Shown here one piece after another: positions 56,872 through 62,986 of a DNA stretch of 64,000 bases (position 1 is its first letter; every line of letters begins with the position of its first letter). A model generated the notes under the pieces. It ran no database searches, was not told where the DNA came from, and worked only from the letters and a program-made list of their open reading frames with translations. The DNA comes from Ignavibacteria bacterium (GTDB lineage Bacteria; Bacteroidota; Ignavibacteria; Tepidaquicellales; OLB5): positions 197,970 through 261,969 of the forward strand of contig JAFLBX010000001.1 of assembly GCA_017303675.1 (NCBI GenBank), given 5' to 3'. Made by a program: the position numbers and the translations under genes.

Positions 56872-58908
56872 CTATTTAACAAGTGTCATTTTTCTTATAT
56901 CGGTGAATGAACCTGCAGTAAGCTTGTAGAAATACACACCGCTTGAAAGGTTCTGAGCATTGAACATTACATTATACGAACCGGGGTTTTGCATTTCGTT
57001 TACAAGCGTCTGCACTTCCCTACCAAGCAGATCGTAAACTTTCAATTCAACACGCTGAGCGTCAGCTATGGAGTACTGTATCATAGTGCTCGGGTTGAAC
57101 GGGTTCGGGTAATTCTGTGAAAGGCTGAATGAAACAGGATTATTGTTTCCTTCTGAATTATCCTCTTCGAAAGCCAGATCGAACCTGTGGCCTGCATTTG
57201 TGATAATAGGAAGCTCAACATATGAATTGCTGCTGAGATAAACTGTATGATCTCCGTTTTTCATGGTAGGCAGAACGAACGGATTTGTACCGAAGAACTC
57301 AACATCTGTGTGCGCTTTATCAAGATTTGTAATAATGATCTGGATCTTGCTTCCTGCCTGGAATTTATGTGAATGAGCCTGGCCGCGGAATGTAACCTGC
57401 CTTCTCTGTCCTTTTGTATAATTCCTGTCTGTAAAGTTCGCGCGGTTGATGAATCTTCTTTCGCCGCTTGGAAGCACTTCATATATCTGGTAATTGAACT
57501 GGCAGAATGTCTGTGCTGCTGATTTATAATCAAGCCTTACAACAGGCGCCCCTGTCCATTCAAGCGGAGCTGTTAAAGCGGTTGAAGTGAACTTAACTGA
57601 ATCTTTTTTGAACTTAGTTTCAAAATTCGCTCCTGTAAACTCATCATTAACTGCCTGCTGAAGTGTGTATCCGTTTGTAATCCTGTTCCTTAAAGTAACT
57701 GAATTGCTGCCTGATTGTACTGTGGTTTTTAATACACCGTTCTTATTCAGGTACAGCCTCATCGGAACAGAAGCATTTCTTAATAAAGTTGTGGAGCTAT
57801 CATGTGTGAATGAAAAATAGCGGTTTTCAACAACCGGGAAATGTGTATATGCATACTGGTATTTAGCCTGGTCAAAGATCGGGGTCTGCATTCCCCACAA
57901 AGTCTGGAAGAAGAAATTGTTGAACCAATCCATATGCCAAACATCTTCAGTATAAGATACATCGCTGCCGTGGCCGCGAACTGCGCCAAGATATGAAGTT
58001 AACGGAGCATTTGTAATTTTATCAATGTGGAGCATCCATCCATCAGCATTGAAGAATTTATCCTGCCATGCAGCTTCAACGAGTACAGGTGTTGTAATAT
58101 TGCCCAACCCGTTAACAAAATCCCTGCCGATAGGCATATAATATTTTAAGCTGTCCCAATATGGTTTTGTATCTGCATAGATCCAGTCTGACATTCTGTC
58201 AACCTGACCGTTGTATCTTGCAGTATCAGGGGTATATTCAATTGTCCATAATAATGACATTTTTGCGCAGCCGTTCTCAATCCAGCTTGAAGCGAAATCA
58301 GGGGGAGCAACTGAATTAATAATTGCTGCAACCTGCATTCCTCTGATAGCAGCTATCATAGGAACAGCGCCGCCCTGTGAGCCGCCCATGATGAGAATTT
58401 TTGAAGGATTTGAACCGTTAACTGAGTCACGTTTTACCCATTCAACTATTTCGATCAAGTCGTCTGCTTCAATTGTGCTGATGAGGTTTGATAATCCTCC
58501 TGATAAGCCCTGTCCGCGAACGCTGAAGGTCATAGTATAATAGCCGTATTCAGCCTGTGCACGGCAGAAATCTGCCAGAGTTTCTTTGTGATCGCCGTAC
58601 CCGTGGTGCATTATCACTGTATTCCATCCGCCTGCCGGAGGTGTAACGCCAACCGGAACGTATTTTAAGCAGTCAATAATTACACCGTCACGCATTGTGA
58701 TGGTGAAATCAGTGCGCTGAACTGCAGCGGGATTATCAGTCTGGATCGGGAGTAAATATGAAGGTGTCCATGTGTTAAGGTTTTTTGGTTTGTTCATGAC
58801 CTTTTTGTTCTGGGTATAAGTAACCTCAGAGTAAGCCATAAAAAAAAGAGCCAATGATAAGCATATCATCAATAGTCTCTTTGTATTTCGGGTTTCAATA
58901 GCATTCAT
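56872..58908 (-). CDS. Secreted S15/CocE-type alpha/beta hydrolase with T9SS sorting domain, second paralogue
   Basis: 678 residues. Signal segment at about 11-33 (RLLMICLSLALFFMAYSEVTYTQ). Hydrolase core: IMHHGYGDHKETLADFCRA, SVRGQGLSGG, nucleophile IMGGSQGGAVPM near 170, His in AVRGHGSDVSYTEDVW. The C-terminal jelly-roll (about 400-600) has IQIIITNLDKAHTDVEFFGTNPFVLP. T9SS domain SQNYPNPFNPSTMI. It parallels the gene at 54516 along its whole length (WDSLKYYMPIGRDF against WDSLAFYLPQNRDF), so this is an old tandem duplication. AAAGGA lies 13 bases ahead of the ATG, and a TATATTTG promoter-like element lies at 58992. Confidence 0.86.
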   Translation of the reverse strand: MNAIETRNTKRLLMICLSLALFFMAYSEVTYTQNKKVMNKPKNLNTWTPSYLLPIQTDNPAAVQRTDFTITMRDGVIIDCLKYVPVGVTPPAGGWNTVIMHHGYGDHKETLADFCRAQAEYGYYTMTFSVRGQGLSGGLSNLISTIEADDLIEIVEWVKRDSVNGSNPSKILIMGGSQGGAVPMIAAIRGMQVAAIINSVAPPDFASSWIENGCAKMSLLWTIEYTPDTARYNGQVDRMSDWIYADTKPYWDSLKYYMPIGRDFVNGLGNITTPVLVEAAWQDKFFNADGWMLHIDKITNAPLTSYLGAVRGHGSDVSYTEDVWHMDWFNNFFFQTLWGMQTPIFDQAKYQYAYTHFPVVENRYFSFTHDSSTTLLRNASVPMRLYLNKNGVLKTTVQSGSNSVTLRNRITNGYTLQQAVNDEFTGANFETKFKKDSVKFTSTALTAPLEWTGAPVVRLDYKSAAQTFCQFNYQIYEVLPSGERRFINRANFTDRNYTKGQRRQVTFRGQAHSHKFQAGSKIQIIITNLDKAHTDVEFFGTNPFVLPTMKNGDHTVYLSSNSYVELPIITNAGHRFDLAFEEDNSEGNNNPVSFSLSQNYPNPFNPSTMIQYSIADAQRVELKVYDLLGREVQTLVNEMQNPGSYNVMFNAQNLSSGVYFYKLTAGSFTDIRKMTLVK

Positions 58909-59731
58909 CTTAATAGATGTCCTTTCAGATATAGATTATTAATTAACAAAAAATCTATTCTGCTATTGTATTCCCTACGAATTATCTGATACAAATATAG
59001 CCCTCCGGCTAACCCTAAAACAATCGTAAATGCATGTAAATGCATAATTACCCTTAAAACCCAAATAATCCTCGATTCACTGTATAACGGTAGCCCGATA
59101 TTTTCTAACGTAATCGGGTGAGTTATTTTGTTCAGTATAATTGTGAAAATAACATAATTGCTATAAAGCATTGATATATATGGATTTGGAAAATTGATAC
59201 AAAGGTGTCTCACATATTTCTCAATATTCATATAATACTTTTGTATCGAATTTTGAGACAAAGCCGAATCGATCCAAAATGTCAATTTTGCAGGTGAATT
59301 TGAATTATTACTATGATGAGTAGTCTGGAAAACCCGAAAATCCGTGTAAATTTCAGGCAGCATTATTCTAATTTGTCTCATAAATTGAAGTGAAATATTA
59401 AAAACTCTGCATATTGTGTGATTCCCGTTAAATATTGCAGGAAGTCGCACCAATGGTCGTTTTTCAGTATAAATGAGACAGTGAGACACAACACAAAGTT
59501 CATGTAAGCTAGCGGGAATTAACAAAAATAGAGAATTGATCATATCCGGGTCATAATTGATTATATGCTTTACGCATATATCACAATATAATATATGATA
59601 TTATCATATGCAAGGGGGTGATGTTATTTTATATATATAAATATGAAGTTTTAATGTATTGATTTATATGAATATGACAATTAATATGCATGAATTATCT
59701 TATAAATTAATTTAACTCAGCCTTTTCTTAA
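58909..59731. other. 823-base gap upstream of the restriction-modification gene, with five TGAGACA/TGTCTCA heptamers
   Basis: I see no recognisable gene here. TGTCTCA at 59206 and 59374; TGAGACA at 59254, 59474 and 59482: five copies within 283 bases, against well under one expected by chance. The last 160 bases are extremely A+T-rich. A 212-codon open frame on the minus strand (59543-58905) spans most of the gap but matches no family and overlaps the hydrolase start and its promoter; it is treated as unsupported. Confidence 0.6.
58992..59023 (-). promoter_or_regulatory. Bacteroidetes-type promoter for the 56872-58908 gene
   Basis: Minus strand TTG (59023-59021), 21-base spacer, TATATTTG (58999-58992); transcription would start about 75 bases ahead of the ATG at 58908. 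Confidence 0.45.
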
Positions 59732-62700
59732 ATGACAATAGAGCAATATATTGAAAGCGTTAATAAAAGGTATAGGCTTGGTAATGCAACTGAACACACT
59801 TTCAGAGGTGACCTTCAACAGCTAATAGAAAGCCTTGTACCGGGGATAAATGCAACTAATGAACCGCAAAGACAGGCATGCGGAGCACCGGATTATATCC
59901 TTACCAAAAAAGAAATACCTATTGGTTACATAGAAGCAAAAGATATTGGCGATACTGATCTTGACGGCACAAAAAAAACCGGAAATAAAGAACAGTTCGA
60001 CCGCTACAAAGCCTCATTGGGCAATATAATTTTTACTGATTACATAAATTTCCATTTATACCGTGAAGGCGAATTTATTACTAAAATTGCTATTGCTGAG
60101 TTAACATCTAAAGGTATAAAACCCCTGCCTGAAAATTTTTCAGAATTTACAGTATTTATAAAAAGCTTTACTTCATATACAGGGCAAACGATAAAAGGCA
60201 GTAAAAAGCTTGCAATGATGATGGCTGATAAAGCTAAACTGCTTGCCTTAATAATTGAAAAAGCATTGGCGGGTGATGAAGAAACTCAGCAGAACAGTAC
60301 ATTAAAAGACCAGTTAACCGCTTTTAAGCAGATCCTGATACACGATATAACAGCAAAGGGTTTTGCAGATGTATACGCCCAGACCATTGCTTATGGAATG
60401 TTTGCAGCACGTTTGCATGACCCCACTTTACCAACATTCAGCAGGCAGGAAGCGGCGGAACTGATACCGAAATCAAATCCATTTCTGCGTAAGCTGTTTG
60501 GGTATATTGCGGGACCCGATATTGACGACCGCATAAAATGGATAGTTGACGACTTGACAGAAATTTTCCTGGCATGTAATGTAGAAGAGATACTTGCGAA
60601 TTTCGGCAAGGCTACCAAAACAGAAGACCCTATAATCCATTTTTACGAAACTTTCCTGAGTGAGTATGACCCTAAACTGCGCAAAGCCCGCGGCGTTTGG
60701 TACACGCCTGCACCTGTTGTGAATTTTATTGTAAGGGCTGTTGATGATATTTTAAAAACTGAATTTAACCTGCCGCAAGGTTTAGCAGATAACAGCAAAA
60801 CTAAAATAAAAGTAAATTTACAGGCAACAGATAAACGCTATAAAGAAAATATCAGAACTATTGAAGAAGAAGTTCACCGGGTGCAGATTTTAGACCCTGC
60901 AGCGGGTACGGGTACATTTTTAGCTGAAGTAGTTAAACAAATTTACGCAAAGTTCAAAAGCCAGCAGGGTATTTGGAGCGACTACGTTGAAACTAACTTA
61001 CTGCCCCGCTTAAACGGTTTTGAAATACTTATGGCAAGTTACGCAATGGCGCATTTAAAGCTTGACCTGCTGCTTAAAGAAACCGGCTACAAGCCAACAC
61101 ACCCCTCCTTTGGAGGGGCAGGGGGAGGTCGCTTGAGAGTTTACCTTACCAACAGCTTAGAAGAAAGCCACCCCGAAACCGGAACACTATTTGCGAATTG
61201 GTTAAGTACAGAAGCAAATGAGGCTAATTACATAAAACGTGATACGCCTGTAATGTGTGTAATTGGAAATCCTCCTTATGCTGTAAGTAGTTCTAATAAG
61301 GGCAAATGGATCCAAAATCTAATTTCAGAGTACAAAATAGATTTAAATGAACAAAAAATAAATCTAGACGATGATTATATAAAGTTCATTCGATATGGAC
61401 AGTATTTTATTGATAAAAATGGAAGTGGCATTTTAGCTTATATTTCAAATAATAGTTTTCTTGATGGTATAACGCACCGCCAAATGCGGAATCATCTTTT
61501 AAAAAGTTTTGATAAGATTTATGTTTTGGATTTACATGGTAATAGCAAAAAAAGAGAGGTTAGTCCCGATGGTTCTATAGATCAAAATGTATTTGATATA
61601 ATGCAGGGAGTTAGCATAAATATATTTGTGAAAACTGGTAAAAAAAGAAAAATAAATTTAGGATCCGTTTACCACAGTGAATTTTTTGGCAAAAGAGAGG
61701 ATAAGTATAAAAAACTAAACAAAAATACTATTAAGAATATAAACTGGGTTGAGCTAAATTATACCAGCCCCAATATGTTTTTTGTTCCAAAAAATTTTGA
61801 TGAAAGTAAAATGTATGATTCATATATTAGTCTGGATGATTTATTTTTATTAAAAGGACCAGGTTGTAAAACTGAAAGAGATGGTGTAAATATTAAATTT
61901 AGTTACAGAGACTTAAAAAATATATTAATAGACTTTATTAATTTAGACGAAAATGGTTTAAGAATCAAATATAATTTAAATAAAGATAGTAGAGATTGGA
62001 AAGTAAATTGGGCTAAAAAAGATGTTAAGGATAATTTTAATGATACATTGATTAAAGAATACTTGTACAGACCATTTGACAAAAGATACATTTATTATTC
62101 TGGTATTTCTAAAGGTTTTGTTGGTACACCAGGCTATAAAAGGTTTGCAAATATGCTCAAAGAAAATATTGGTCTAATTTACCCTAGAATGTGTAAAGGT
62201 AGAGGTGGTTTTCAACATGGATTTATTTCAAAGAATATTATTGATGTTGCAAGTGGTGATGCTTTTTCAGGTGCGGGTACTTTTTTCGCCCCATTATACT
62301 TATATCCACTAACAAGCATTCAACAAAATGTTTTAGTATCCAAAGAAAGAACACCAAATCTTAATCCGGAAATTGTAAAGGAAATAGCAGAGAAATTGGG
62401 ATTAACATTTGTGCATGAAAAGACCTCCCCAACCCCTCTAAAGGAGGGGCTCGAGAAGCAAACATCGGCTACCTTGAAGCAAGGTGAGACTTTTGCCCCG
62501 ATTGATATTTTAGATTACATATACGCGGTGCTGCACTCACCAGCATACAGAGAAAAATACAAAGAATTCTTAAAGATAGATTTCCCGAGAGTTCCGTATC
62601 CAAAAGATAAAAAAACATTTTGGAAATTAGTTAAGTTGGGCGGGGAATTGAGGGAAATACATTTGCTTGAGAGTCCCGAGGTAGATAAATTTAAAACTAA

Positions 62701-62986
62701 ATATCCGGTCACTGGTGATAATGTTGTAGATAAGCCAAAATATATTGAGGTAAAATCGGGGGTAGGCAAAGTACATATTAACAGTTCGCAGTATTTTGAA
62801 AATGTACCGGAAGCAGCATGGCATTTTTACATAGGCGGTTATCAGCCTGCACAGAAGTGGCTTAAAGACCGCAAAGGCAGAAAATTAGAGTTTGATGATA
62901 TATTGCATTACCAAAAGATAATTGTTGCATTAACTGAAACGGGCCGGCTGATGAGTGAGATCGATAAGGTGGGGGTAGAGTGGTAA
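59732..62986 (+). CDS. Type ISP/IIG-like restriction-modification enzyme (nuclease + N6-adenine methyltransferase + target recognition in one chain)
   Basis: 1084 residues. N-terminal PD-ExK nuclease: Asp54 in GAPDYILTK and Glu68/Lys70 in GYIEAKD. Then a helical spacer, with no Walker A/B helicase motifs seen. The methyltransferase has motif I LDPAAGTGTFLAE (Asp388) and motif IV GNPPYAV (Asn513), typical of N6-adenine type. The C-terminal target-recognition half ends FYIGGYQPAQKWLKDRKGRKLEFDD, the Type ISP C-terminal domain. One chain would both methylate and cut. Known Type ISP enzymes are about 1500-1600 residues with a helicase; this one lacks it. The stretch 61260-62340 is visibly more A+T-rich than either flank. 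Two palindromic repeats are inserted in frame. A short coupled ORF follows. Confidence 0.88.
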   Translation: MTIEQYIESVNKRYRLGNATEHTFRGDLQQLIESLVPGINATNEPQRQACGAPDYILTKKEIPIGYIEAKDIGDTDLDGTKKTGNKEQFDRYKASLGNIIFTDYINFHLYREGEFITKIAIAELTSKGIKPLPENFSEFTVFIKSFTSYTGQTIKGSKKLAMMMADKAKLLALIIEKALAGDEETQQNSTLKDQLTAFKQILIHDITAKGFADVYAQTIAYGMFAARLHDPTLPTFSRQEAAELIPKSNPFLRKLFGYIAGPDIDDRIKWIVDDLTEIFLACNVEEILANFGKATKTEDPIIHFYETFLSEYDPKLRKARGVWYTPAPVVNFIVRAVDDILKTEFNLPQGLADNSKTKIKVNLQATDKRYKENIRTIEEEVHRVQILDPAAGTGTFLAEVVKQIYAKFKSQQGIWSDYVETNLLPRLNGFEILMASYAMAHLKLDLLLKETGYKPTHPSFGGAGGGRLRVYLTNSLEESHPETGTLFANWLSTEANEANYIKRDTPVMCVIGNPPYAVSSSNKGKWIQNLISEYKIDLNEQKINLDDDYIKFIRYGQYFIDKNGSGILAYISNNSFLDGITHRQMRNHLLKSFDKIYVLDLHGNSKKREVSPDGSIDQNVFDIMQGVSINIFVKTGKKRKINLGSVYHSEFFGKREDKYKKLNKNTIKNINWVELNYTSPNMFFVPKNFDESKMYDSYISLDDLFLLKGPGCKTERDGVNIKFSYRDLKNILIDFINLDENGLRIKYNLNKDSRDWKVNWAKKDVKDNFNDTLIKEYLYRPFDKRYIYYSGISKGFVGTPGYKRFANMLKENIGLIYPRMCKGRGGFQHGFISKNIIDVASGDAFSGAGTFFAPLYLYPLTSIQQNVLVSKERTPNLNPEIVKEIAEKLGLTFVHEKTSPTPLKEGLEKQTSATLKQGETFAPIDILDYIYAVLHSPAYREKYKEFLKIDFPRVPYPKDKKTFWKLVKLGGELREIHLLESPEVDKFKTKYPVTGDNVVDKPKYIEVKSGVGKVHINSSQYFENVPEAAWHFYIGGYQPAQKWLKDRKGRKLEFDDILHYQKIIVALTETGRLMSEIDKVGVEW
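61101..61130 (+). repeat. Palindromic G/C-rich repeat inside the restriction-modification gene, copy A
   Basis: acccctcctttggaggggcagggggaggtc, kept in frame and encoding about PSFGGAGGG (residues about 457-467). The other orientation of the same element is at 62422. Confidence 0.75.
62422..62450 (-). repeat. Palindromic G/C-rich repeat inside the restriction-modification gene, copy B (inverted)
   Basis: The reverse complement, gcccctcctttagaggggttggggaggtc, matches copy A closely. It encodes about TSPTPLKEGL (residues about 897-907), in frame. Confidence 0.75.

Follow-up and report, generated by a model that had tools for sequence, protein, structure and literature searches.

Why do five copies of one heptamer, TGAGACA or its complement TGTCTCA, lie within 283 bp ahead of a restriction-modification gene? 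The question arises in the window, meaning here the whole stretch of 64,000 nucleotides analysed, which comes from an Ignavibacteria genome of 3.65 Mb (G000; C1 and C2 are its contigs and other G numbers are comparison genomes). A preliminary description had placed the heptamers at 59206 (minus strand), 59254 (plus), 59374 (minus), 59474 (plus) and 59482 (plus), with the wider contexts TTnTGAGACAAA and GTGAGACAC common to several of them, and had named the gene downstream as a Type ISP enzyme; all of this holds. It had offered three explanations: the heptamers could belong to a mobile or repeat element, they could be bound by a regulator of the locus, or they could be the enzyme's own recognition sequence, used for self-control. 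It had also proposed a genome-wide count of TGAGACA. That count gives 130 sites in 3.65 Mb, fewer than the 194 of the reversed control, so that genome-wide enrichment is rejected; the window as a whole is not enriched either (7 sites against 6.1 expected). At the genome's own density, 0.010 sites are expected per 283 bp where five are found, and the probability of at least five is ~9e-13 per 283-bp interval and ~1e-8 genome-wide. Similarly tight clusters occur, among 100 sites listed, only at C1:902.7k, C1:1576k and C2:38k, with one further tight cluster at C2:1004.8k. All of these are copies of the same element as the cluster in the window, where its parts and neighbours are as follows.

59190..59616, minus strand: whole B-array unit, made up of element B, a type-1 array and a second small heptamer block; predicted transcription runs leftwards, away from the Type ISP gene.
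59561..59616, minus strand: element B, conserved and promoter/operator-like (model R1, 52.0 bits, E 1.8e-13).
59608..59613, minus strand: putative -35 hexamer TTGCAT (TTGACA in several other copies of B).
59585..59590, minus strand: putative -10 hexamer TATATT, 17-bp spacer from the -35 hexamer; a generic promoter scan does not flag B in the window.
59563..59579, no strand: palindrome ATATGC-N5-GCATAT at the expected transcription start, near-invariant in 28 copies; probable operator.
59366..59489, minus strand: type-1 array of ~125 bp, holding the heptamers at 59374 (TGTCTCA), 59474 and 59482 (both TGAGACA); placed by alignment with four other copies.
59190..59262, no strand: second block, holding the heptamers at 59206 (TGTCTCA) and 59254 (TGAGACA) between an inverted pair of GATACAAA.
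56872..58908, minus strand: S15/alpha-beta hydrolase peptidase gene, outside the unit and next downstream of it.
59732..62986, plus strand: Type ISP restriction-modification enzyme, outside the unit (Pfam Type_ISP_C, E 2.1e-89; PADLOC REase_MTase_IIG).

Element B lies ~70 bp to the right of the type-1 array, which is partly decayed: its outer left heptamer now reads TATTCTA and one right spacer base is lost. A search for homologues of the second heptamer block elsewhere found none. The ~218 bp 5' of the peptidase gene (58909-59126) are conserved across the genus. A 212-aa open frame also runs through the unit on the minus strand (58905-59543), its end overlapping the start of the peptidase gene in an ATGA. 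Its length is unusual (reached in 0 of 2000 shuffles) and a Pfam search gave no match; as a gene it was rejected, the frame being broken in the conserved part in readable relatives and absent from other units.

That the Type ISP enzyme recognises the heptamers, or is controlled through them, is suggested by their proximity to its gene and by nothing else, and the idea is almost certainly wrong. The preliminary description had regarded absence of the cluster beside conserved orthologues, along with a lack of modification, as evidence against it, and such absence is found: G002 carries an orthologue with 95% amino-acid identity (G002:C2:23734), with ~170 bp upstream (window 59562-59731) at 84% DNA identity, and its 6.2-kb locus contains no TGAGACA. 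Many ATTCTCA/TGAGAAT sites stand there instead, in the same place as the window cluster. The heptamer is also missing from the Type ISP loci of G036, G008 and G028, the other four type-1 arrays are not near restriction-modification genes, and the unit's predicted promoter points away from the Type ISP gene.

The type-1 module has the layout TGTCTCA nn TGTCTCA, core, TGAGACA nn TGAGACA, over ~125 bp, and its copies align end to end. Besides the window copy, full-length alignment places it at four sites.

C1:902690-902816: type-1 array.
C1:1576296-1576421: type-1 array.
C2:38368-38493: type-1 array.
C2:1004822-1004947: type-1 array.

Neighbours of these four are a crtI-like gene, tRNAs with clpX, lpxC, and a helix-turn-helix (HTH) gene ahead of atpD. 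The preliminary suggestion of a mobile or repeat element was essentially right. Four of the five type-1 arrays, that of the window included, lie directly downstream of B, which is ~100 bp upstream; at the fifth the order is B, a gene for a ~300-aa two-HTH protein, then the array. Double heptamers of type 1 form arrays in G000 only, the other genomes searched being at background.

Element B, ~60 bp long, recurs in members of this genus and was found in no other. Read leftwards, the consensus of a 28-copy alignment is TTGCAT or TTGACA, 17-18 bp, TATATT, a few bp, and ATATGC-N5-GCATAT. We infer from this pattern a promoter of sigma70 type, probably autoregulated, with the palindrome lying where transcription would start. 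A sequence model finds ~19 copies in G000. The same search gave 1-16 copies for each of nine further members of the genus and no copy in six genomes of the order. Every strong match, read leftwards, runs into an HTH gene or an array. A weak match (E 3e-5) precedes the first gene of a probable prophage at G000:C1:1920000-1930000, a run of terminase-like, portal/head-like and tail-like genes.

The genes that B precedes encode a two-HTH protein of ~300-384 aa, with four such genes in G000. The protein has no significant family in Pfam, NCBIfam, PHROGs or PADLOC and no sequence relative in the PDB. AF2 predicts two HTH units with good confidence in residues 7-124 and places the C-terminal part poorly. 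Foldseek searches with two such models gave nothing significant; non-significant matches recur to the DNA-binding parts of IstA, TnsB and Mos1 and to small terminases. The protein has no recognisable catalytic domain, Pfam gave no Y1_Tnp match, and no H-x-H occurs among the invariant alignment columns. Of 245 genomes of the class, 17 carry the family, in this genus, a sister genus and a few further members of the order and class, and a search of named genomes with the type-2 protein matched four Ignavibacteria MAGs. Two alpha-HTH genes, G000:C1:1302098 and G002:C9:3919, have no recognised array behind them. A second (beta) subfamily of ~270 aa occurs widely among the genus members, and most of its genes have no array behind them; one of them, G000:C1:647928-648743, has an ATATGC...GCATAT palindrome upstream.

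Three HTH genes of G000 are each followed by an array of a different type.

G000:C2:1005442 (1005442-1006302): HTH gene with a type-1 array (TGTCTCA) behind it.
G000:C2:647742: HTH gene with a type-2 array (TTCTCAnnATGAATA palindromes) behind it.
G000:C2:1451287: HTH gene with a type-3 array (CATTCTAATCGGTCAA) behind it.

The pairing is one to one: among HTH-less units, the first array matches those of type 1 only (E 3e-13 to 0.002, the window being weakest), the second those of type 2 only (E to 1e-25) and the third those of type 3 only. The same order of HTH gene and array recurs in sister species, with type 2 in G002, G005, G010 and G012 and type 3 in G010, and an HTH gene in G009:C192 is followed by an array of a further type. 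Wherever a type-2 HTH gene is present, in five genomes, type-2 palindromes are present too, and the 39 genomes that lack the gene have none (Fisher 9e-7 over all genomes, 8e-4 within the genus). Co-occurrence is imperfect for type 3, as arrays are present in G005 and G012 and the type-3 HTH gene was not found there.

Site and protein also appear to have drifted together. In G010, 9 of 12 type-2 arms have shifted from TTCTCA to TTCCCA, against 1 of 52 elsewhere, counts in which the arms are not independent observations, and the array behind G010's own type-2 HTH gene has drifted likewise. Alone of five, the G010 type-2 HTH protein carries an Ala to Thr change (A42T) in the predicted recognition helix; in a type-3 pair a parallel change from Ala to Ser goes together with T to C. 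A residue-base link between recognition helix and site motif is put forward as a hypothesis, because the arms are not independent and G009 does not clearly follow the rule.

These pairings bear on whether the array could instead be a structured non-coding RNA made from B. The array does lie downstream of a promoter-like sequence and its inverted repeats could pair, yet an Rfam search gave no match, and of 32 type-2 palindromes only 8 and 14 show pairing at the two inner spacer positions, which is near chance. The half-sites stay symmetric, as expected of a protein site and not of a stem, and array type follows protein type. An RNA of this kind is very unlikely.

Comparison of orthologous sites, in genomes of which several are fragmented assemblies, indicates turnover of the units. 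The site 5' of the peptidase gene, beside the window unit, is empty in G002 and G003, holds type 2 in G012, types 2 and 3 with B in G005 and G010, and type 1 with B in G000. The region downstream of crtI has no unit in seven relatives. Two units in unrelated surroundings, at C2:220k and C1:1828k, share 94.7% identity over 319 bp. Repeats of GAGCTCCGTAGGAGCGATATGTTTGTAGA, varying in copy number, occur between stacked type-3 and type-2 arrays at C2:219.1-219.6k and C1:1828.7-1829.4k. At a PPIase gene the order in G002 is gene, type 2, B and Type ISP gene, and in G000 it is gene, type 2, type 3, B and another gene; on the strength of these two orders, B also marks the apparent junction where the Type ISP gene changed neighbours. 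No target-site duplication is evident on inspection of unit flanks, with unit ends only approximately placed.

The main rival to a spreading element is a host regulon, in which the HTH proteins would be regulators of transcription like any other, and B with its array the selected promoter and operator of the gene behind (lpxC, clpX, atpD, ffh, the peptidase and others). It accords with the strong conservation of B, with the co-direction of unit promoter and genes in six of seven tandem contexts (our count), and with the synteny of HTH-array loci at ffh (G005, G010, G012) and at a TolB-like gene (G000, G010). The syntenic loci fit a regulon. What does not fit is that orthologous sites differ in whether they hold a unit and in its array type, and that almost identical units lie at unrelated loci; the genes behind the units also have no evident function in common. 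A host regulon is on balance unlikely.

The preferred reading, to which we give a probability of about two in three, is that the window cluster is a type-1 site array belonging to a copy, lacking the HTH gene, of a dispersed element made up of B, an HTH gene and an array. Dispersed copies, linkage of B to arrays, one-to-one pairing of HTH gene and array, co-occurrence for type 2, and presence or absence at orthologous sites are all directly observed. The full element would comprise a promoter with palindromic operator (B), a gene for a two-HTH protein and an array of short inverted sites; HTH-less copies, the window unit among them, would have retained B and the array alone, and are best read as REP/MITE-like derivatives. 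The HTH protein would be expressed from B, and each such protein may bind its own cognate array and the dispersed copies of that array; TGAGACA in the window would then be bound by the product of G000:C2:1005442-1006302. The earlier suggestion of binding sites for a regulator is probably right in kind, the regulator not being one of the Type ISP gene. HTH-less units may travel as non-autonomous passengers in the manner of REPs or MITEs and persist in 5' regions, to which they would add a promoter and candidate binding sites and may change transcription of the gene behind.

Another conceivable source of the heptamers is a MITE of the usual kind, derived from a known insertion sequence that ends in TGTCTCA, with B and the HTH gene as coincidental neighbours. 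A 109-bp element with ends TGTCTCAAAA...TTTTGAGACA does occur in many copies in G009 and other genus members, but its core differs, it sits in a palindromic insertion context and it lacks B. G000 yielded no longer element that carries paired heptamers, and B accompanies arrays far beyond coincidence. Such an origin is most improbable, and identity of the window unit with the 109-bp element was rejected, only the TGTCTCA ends being alike. The 109-bp element (22 copies in G009; also in G006) has two inner hairpins and inverted flanks, AGAGGC before and GCCTCT after, and its outer flanks form a copy-specific palindrome, as if it had inserted into hairpin loops or terminators. Two G008 loci show the same placement with other cores.

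Autoregulated DNA-binding proteins with an adjacent site array are known from plasmid Rep/iteron, partition and small-terminase/pac arrangements. Like these, the element sets a predicted DNA-binding protein gene beside an array of its own putative sites, and the weak fold matches of the HTH protein include small terminases. It differs in lying on the chromosome in multiple copies, many of them devoid of the gene, and in having inverted sites in place of direct iterons, and no replication, partition or packaging genes were seen next to the HTH genes. The closeness to RAYT-REP systems, REP-associated tyrosine transposases with REP/BIME repeats (PMC2817692), lies in a gene beside its own repeat type, dispersed gene-less cognate repeats, protein/repeat co-evolution and several pairs per genus. 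Here the gene adjoins its cognate array on one side only, and gene presence correlates with repeat presence in both systems (here for type 2, 5/5 against 0/39; for type 1 in G000 only; for type 3 imperfectly). In contrast to RAYTs, which a Y1/HUH domain defines (PMC2817692), the two-HTH protein lacks this domain, and membership in RAYT-REP was rejected on that ground. One-sided site arrays with a common promoter/operator B opposite replace the two inverted REPs, and there are ~19 copies per genome against >100. MITEs and RUP-type small mobile repeats (PMC2229807) are likewise short, non-coding, intergenic and dispersed, with inverted sites, and probably derived from a longer element by gene loss; dispersed copies and empty orthologous sites are common to both. 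Unlike them, the unit has no terminal inverted repeat pair bounding it and carries a conserved, predicted promoter at one end: the array ends are inverted and the unit ends in B, no terminal repeats shared with an autonomous transposon are seen, and no transposase with the unit's ends was found. No description of the B-HTH-array element was found in the literature accessible without subscription.

The cluster is a pointer to a family of genetic elements that spread and that had not been described. A broader proposal, possible but offered tentatively, is an as yet undescribed class of self-spreading elements built on a two-HTH protein that is not an enzyme. Protein and site arrays would diversify jointly, fresh site types emerging along with new HTH paralogues, different types stacking beside a fixed B and HTH-less copies spreading through the genome under the cognate protein. 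For the original heptamer observation, a false lead towards restriction-enzyme self-control is removed. An unclassified protein family is named and part of the genus's intergenic repeat content is accounted for. The genus offers a natural series of paired proteins and putative sites, with at least four clear types and drifted forms of these in sister species. At many dispersed sites a single-base change seems to be matched by one in the recognition helix, which makes the co-evolution of protein and site directly testable.
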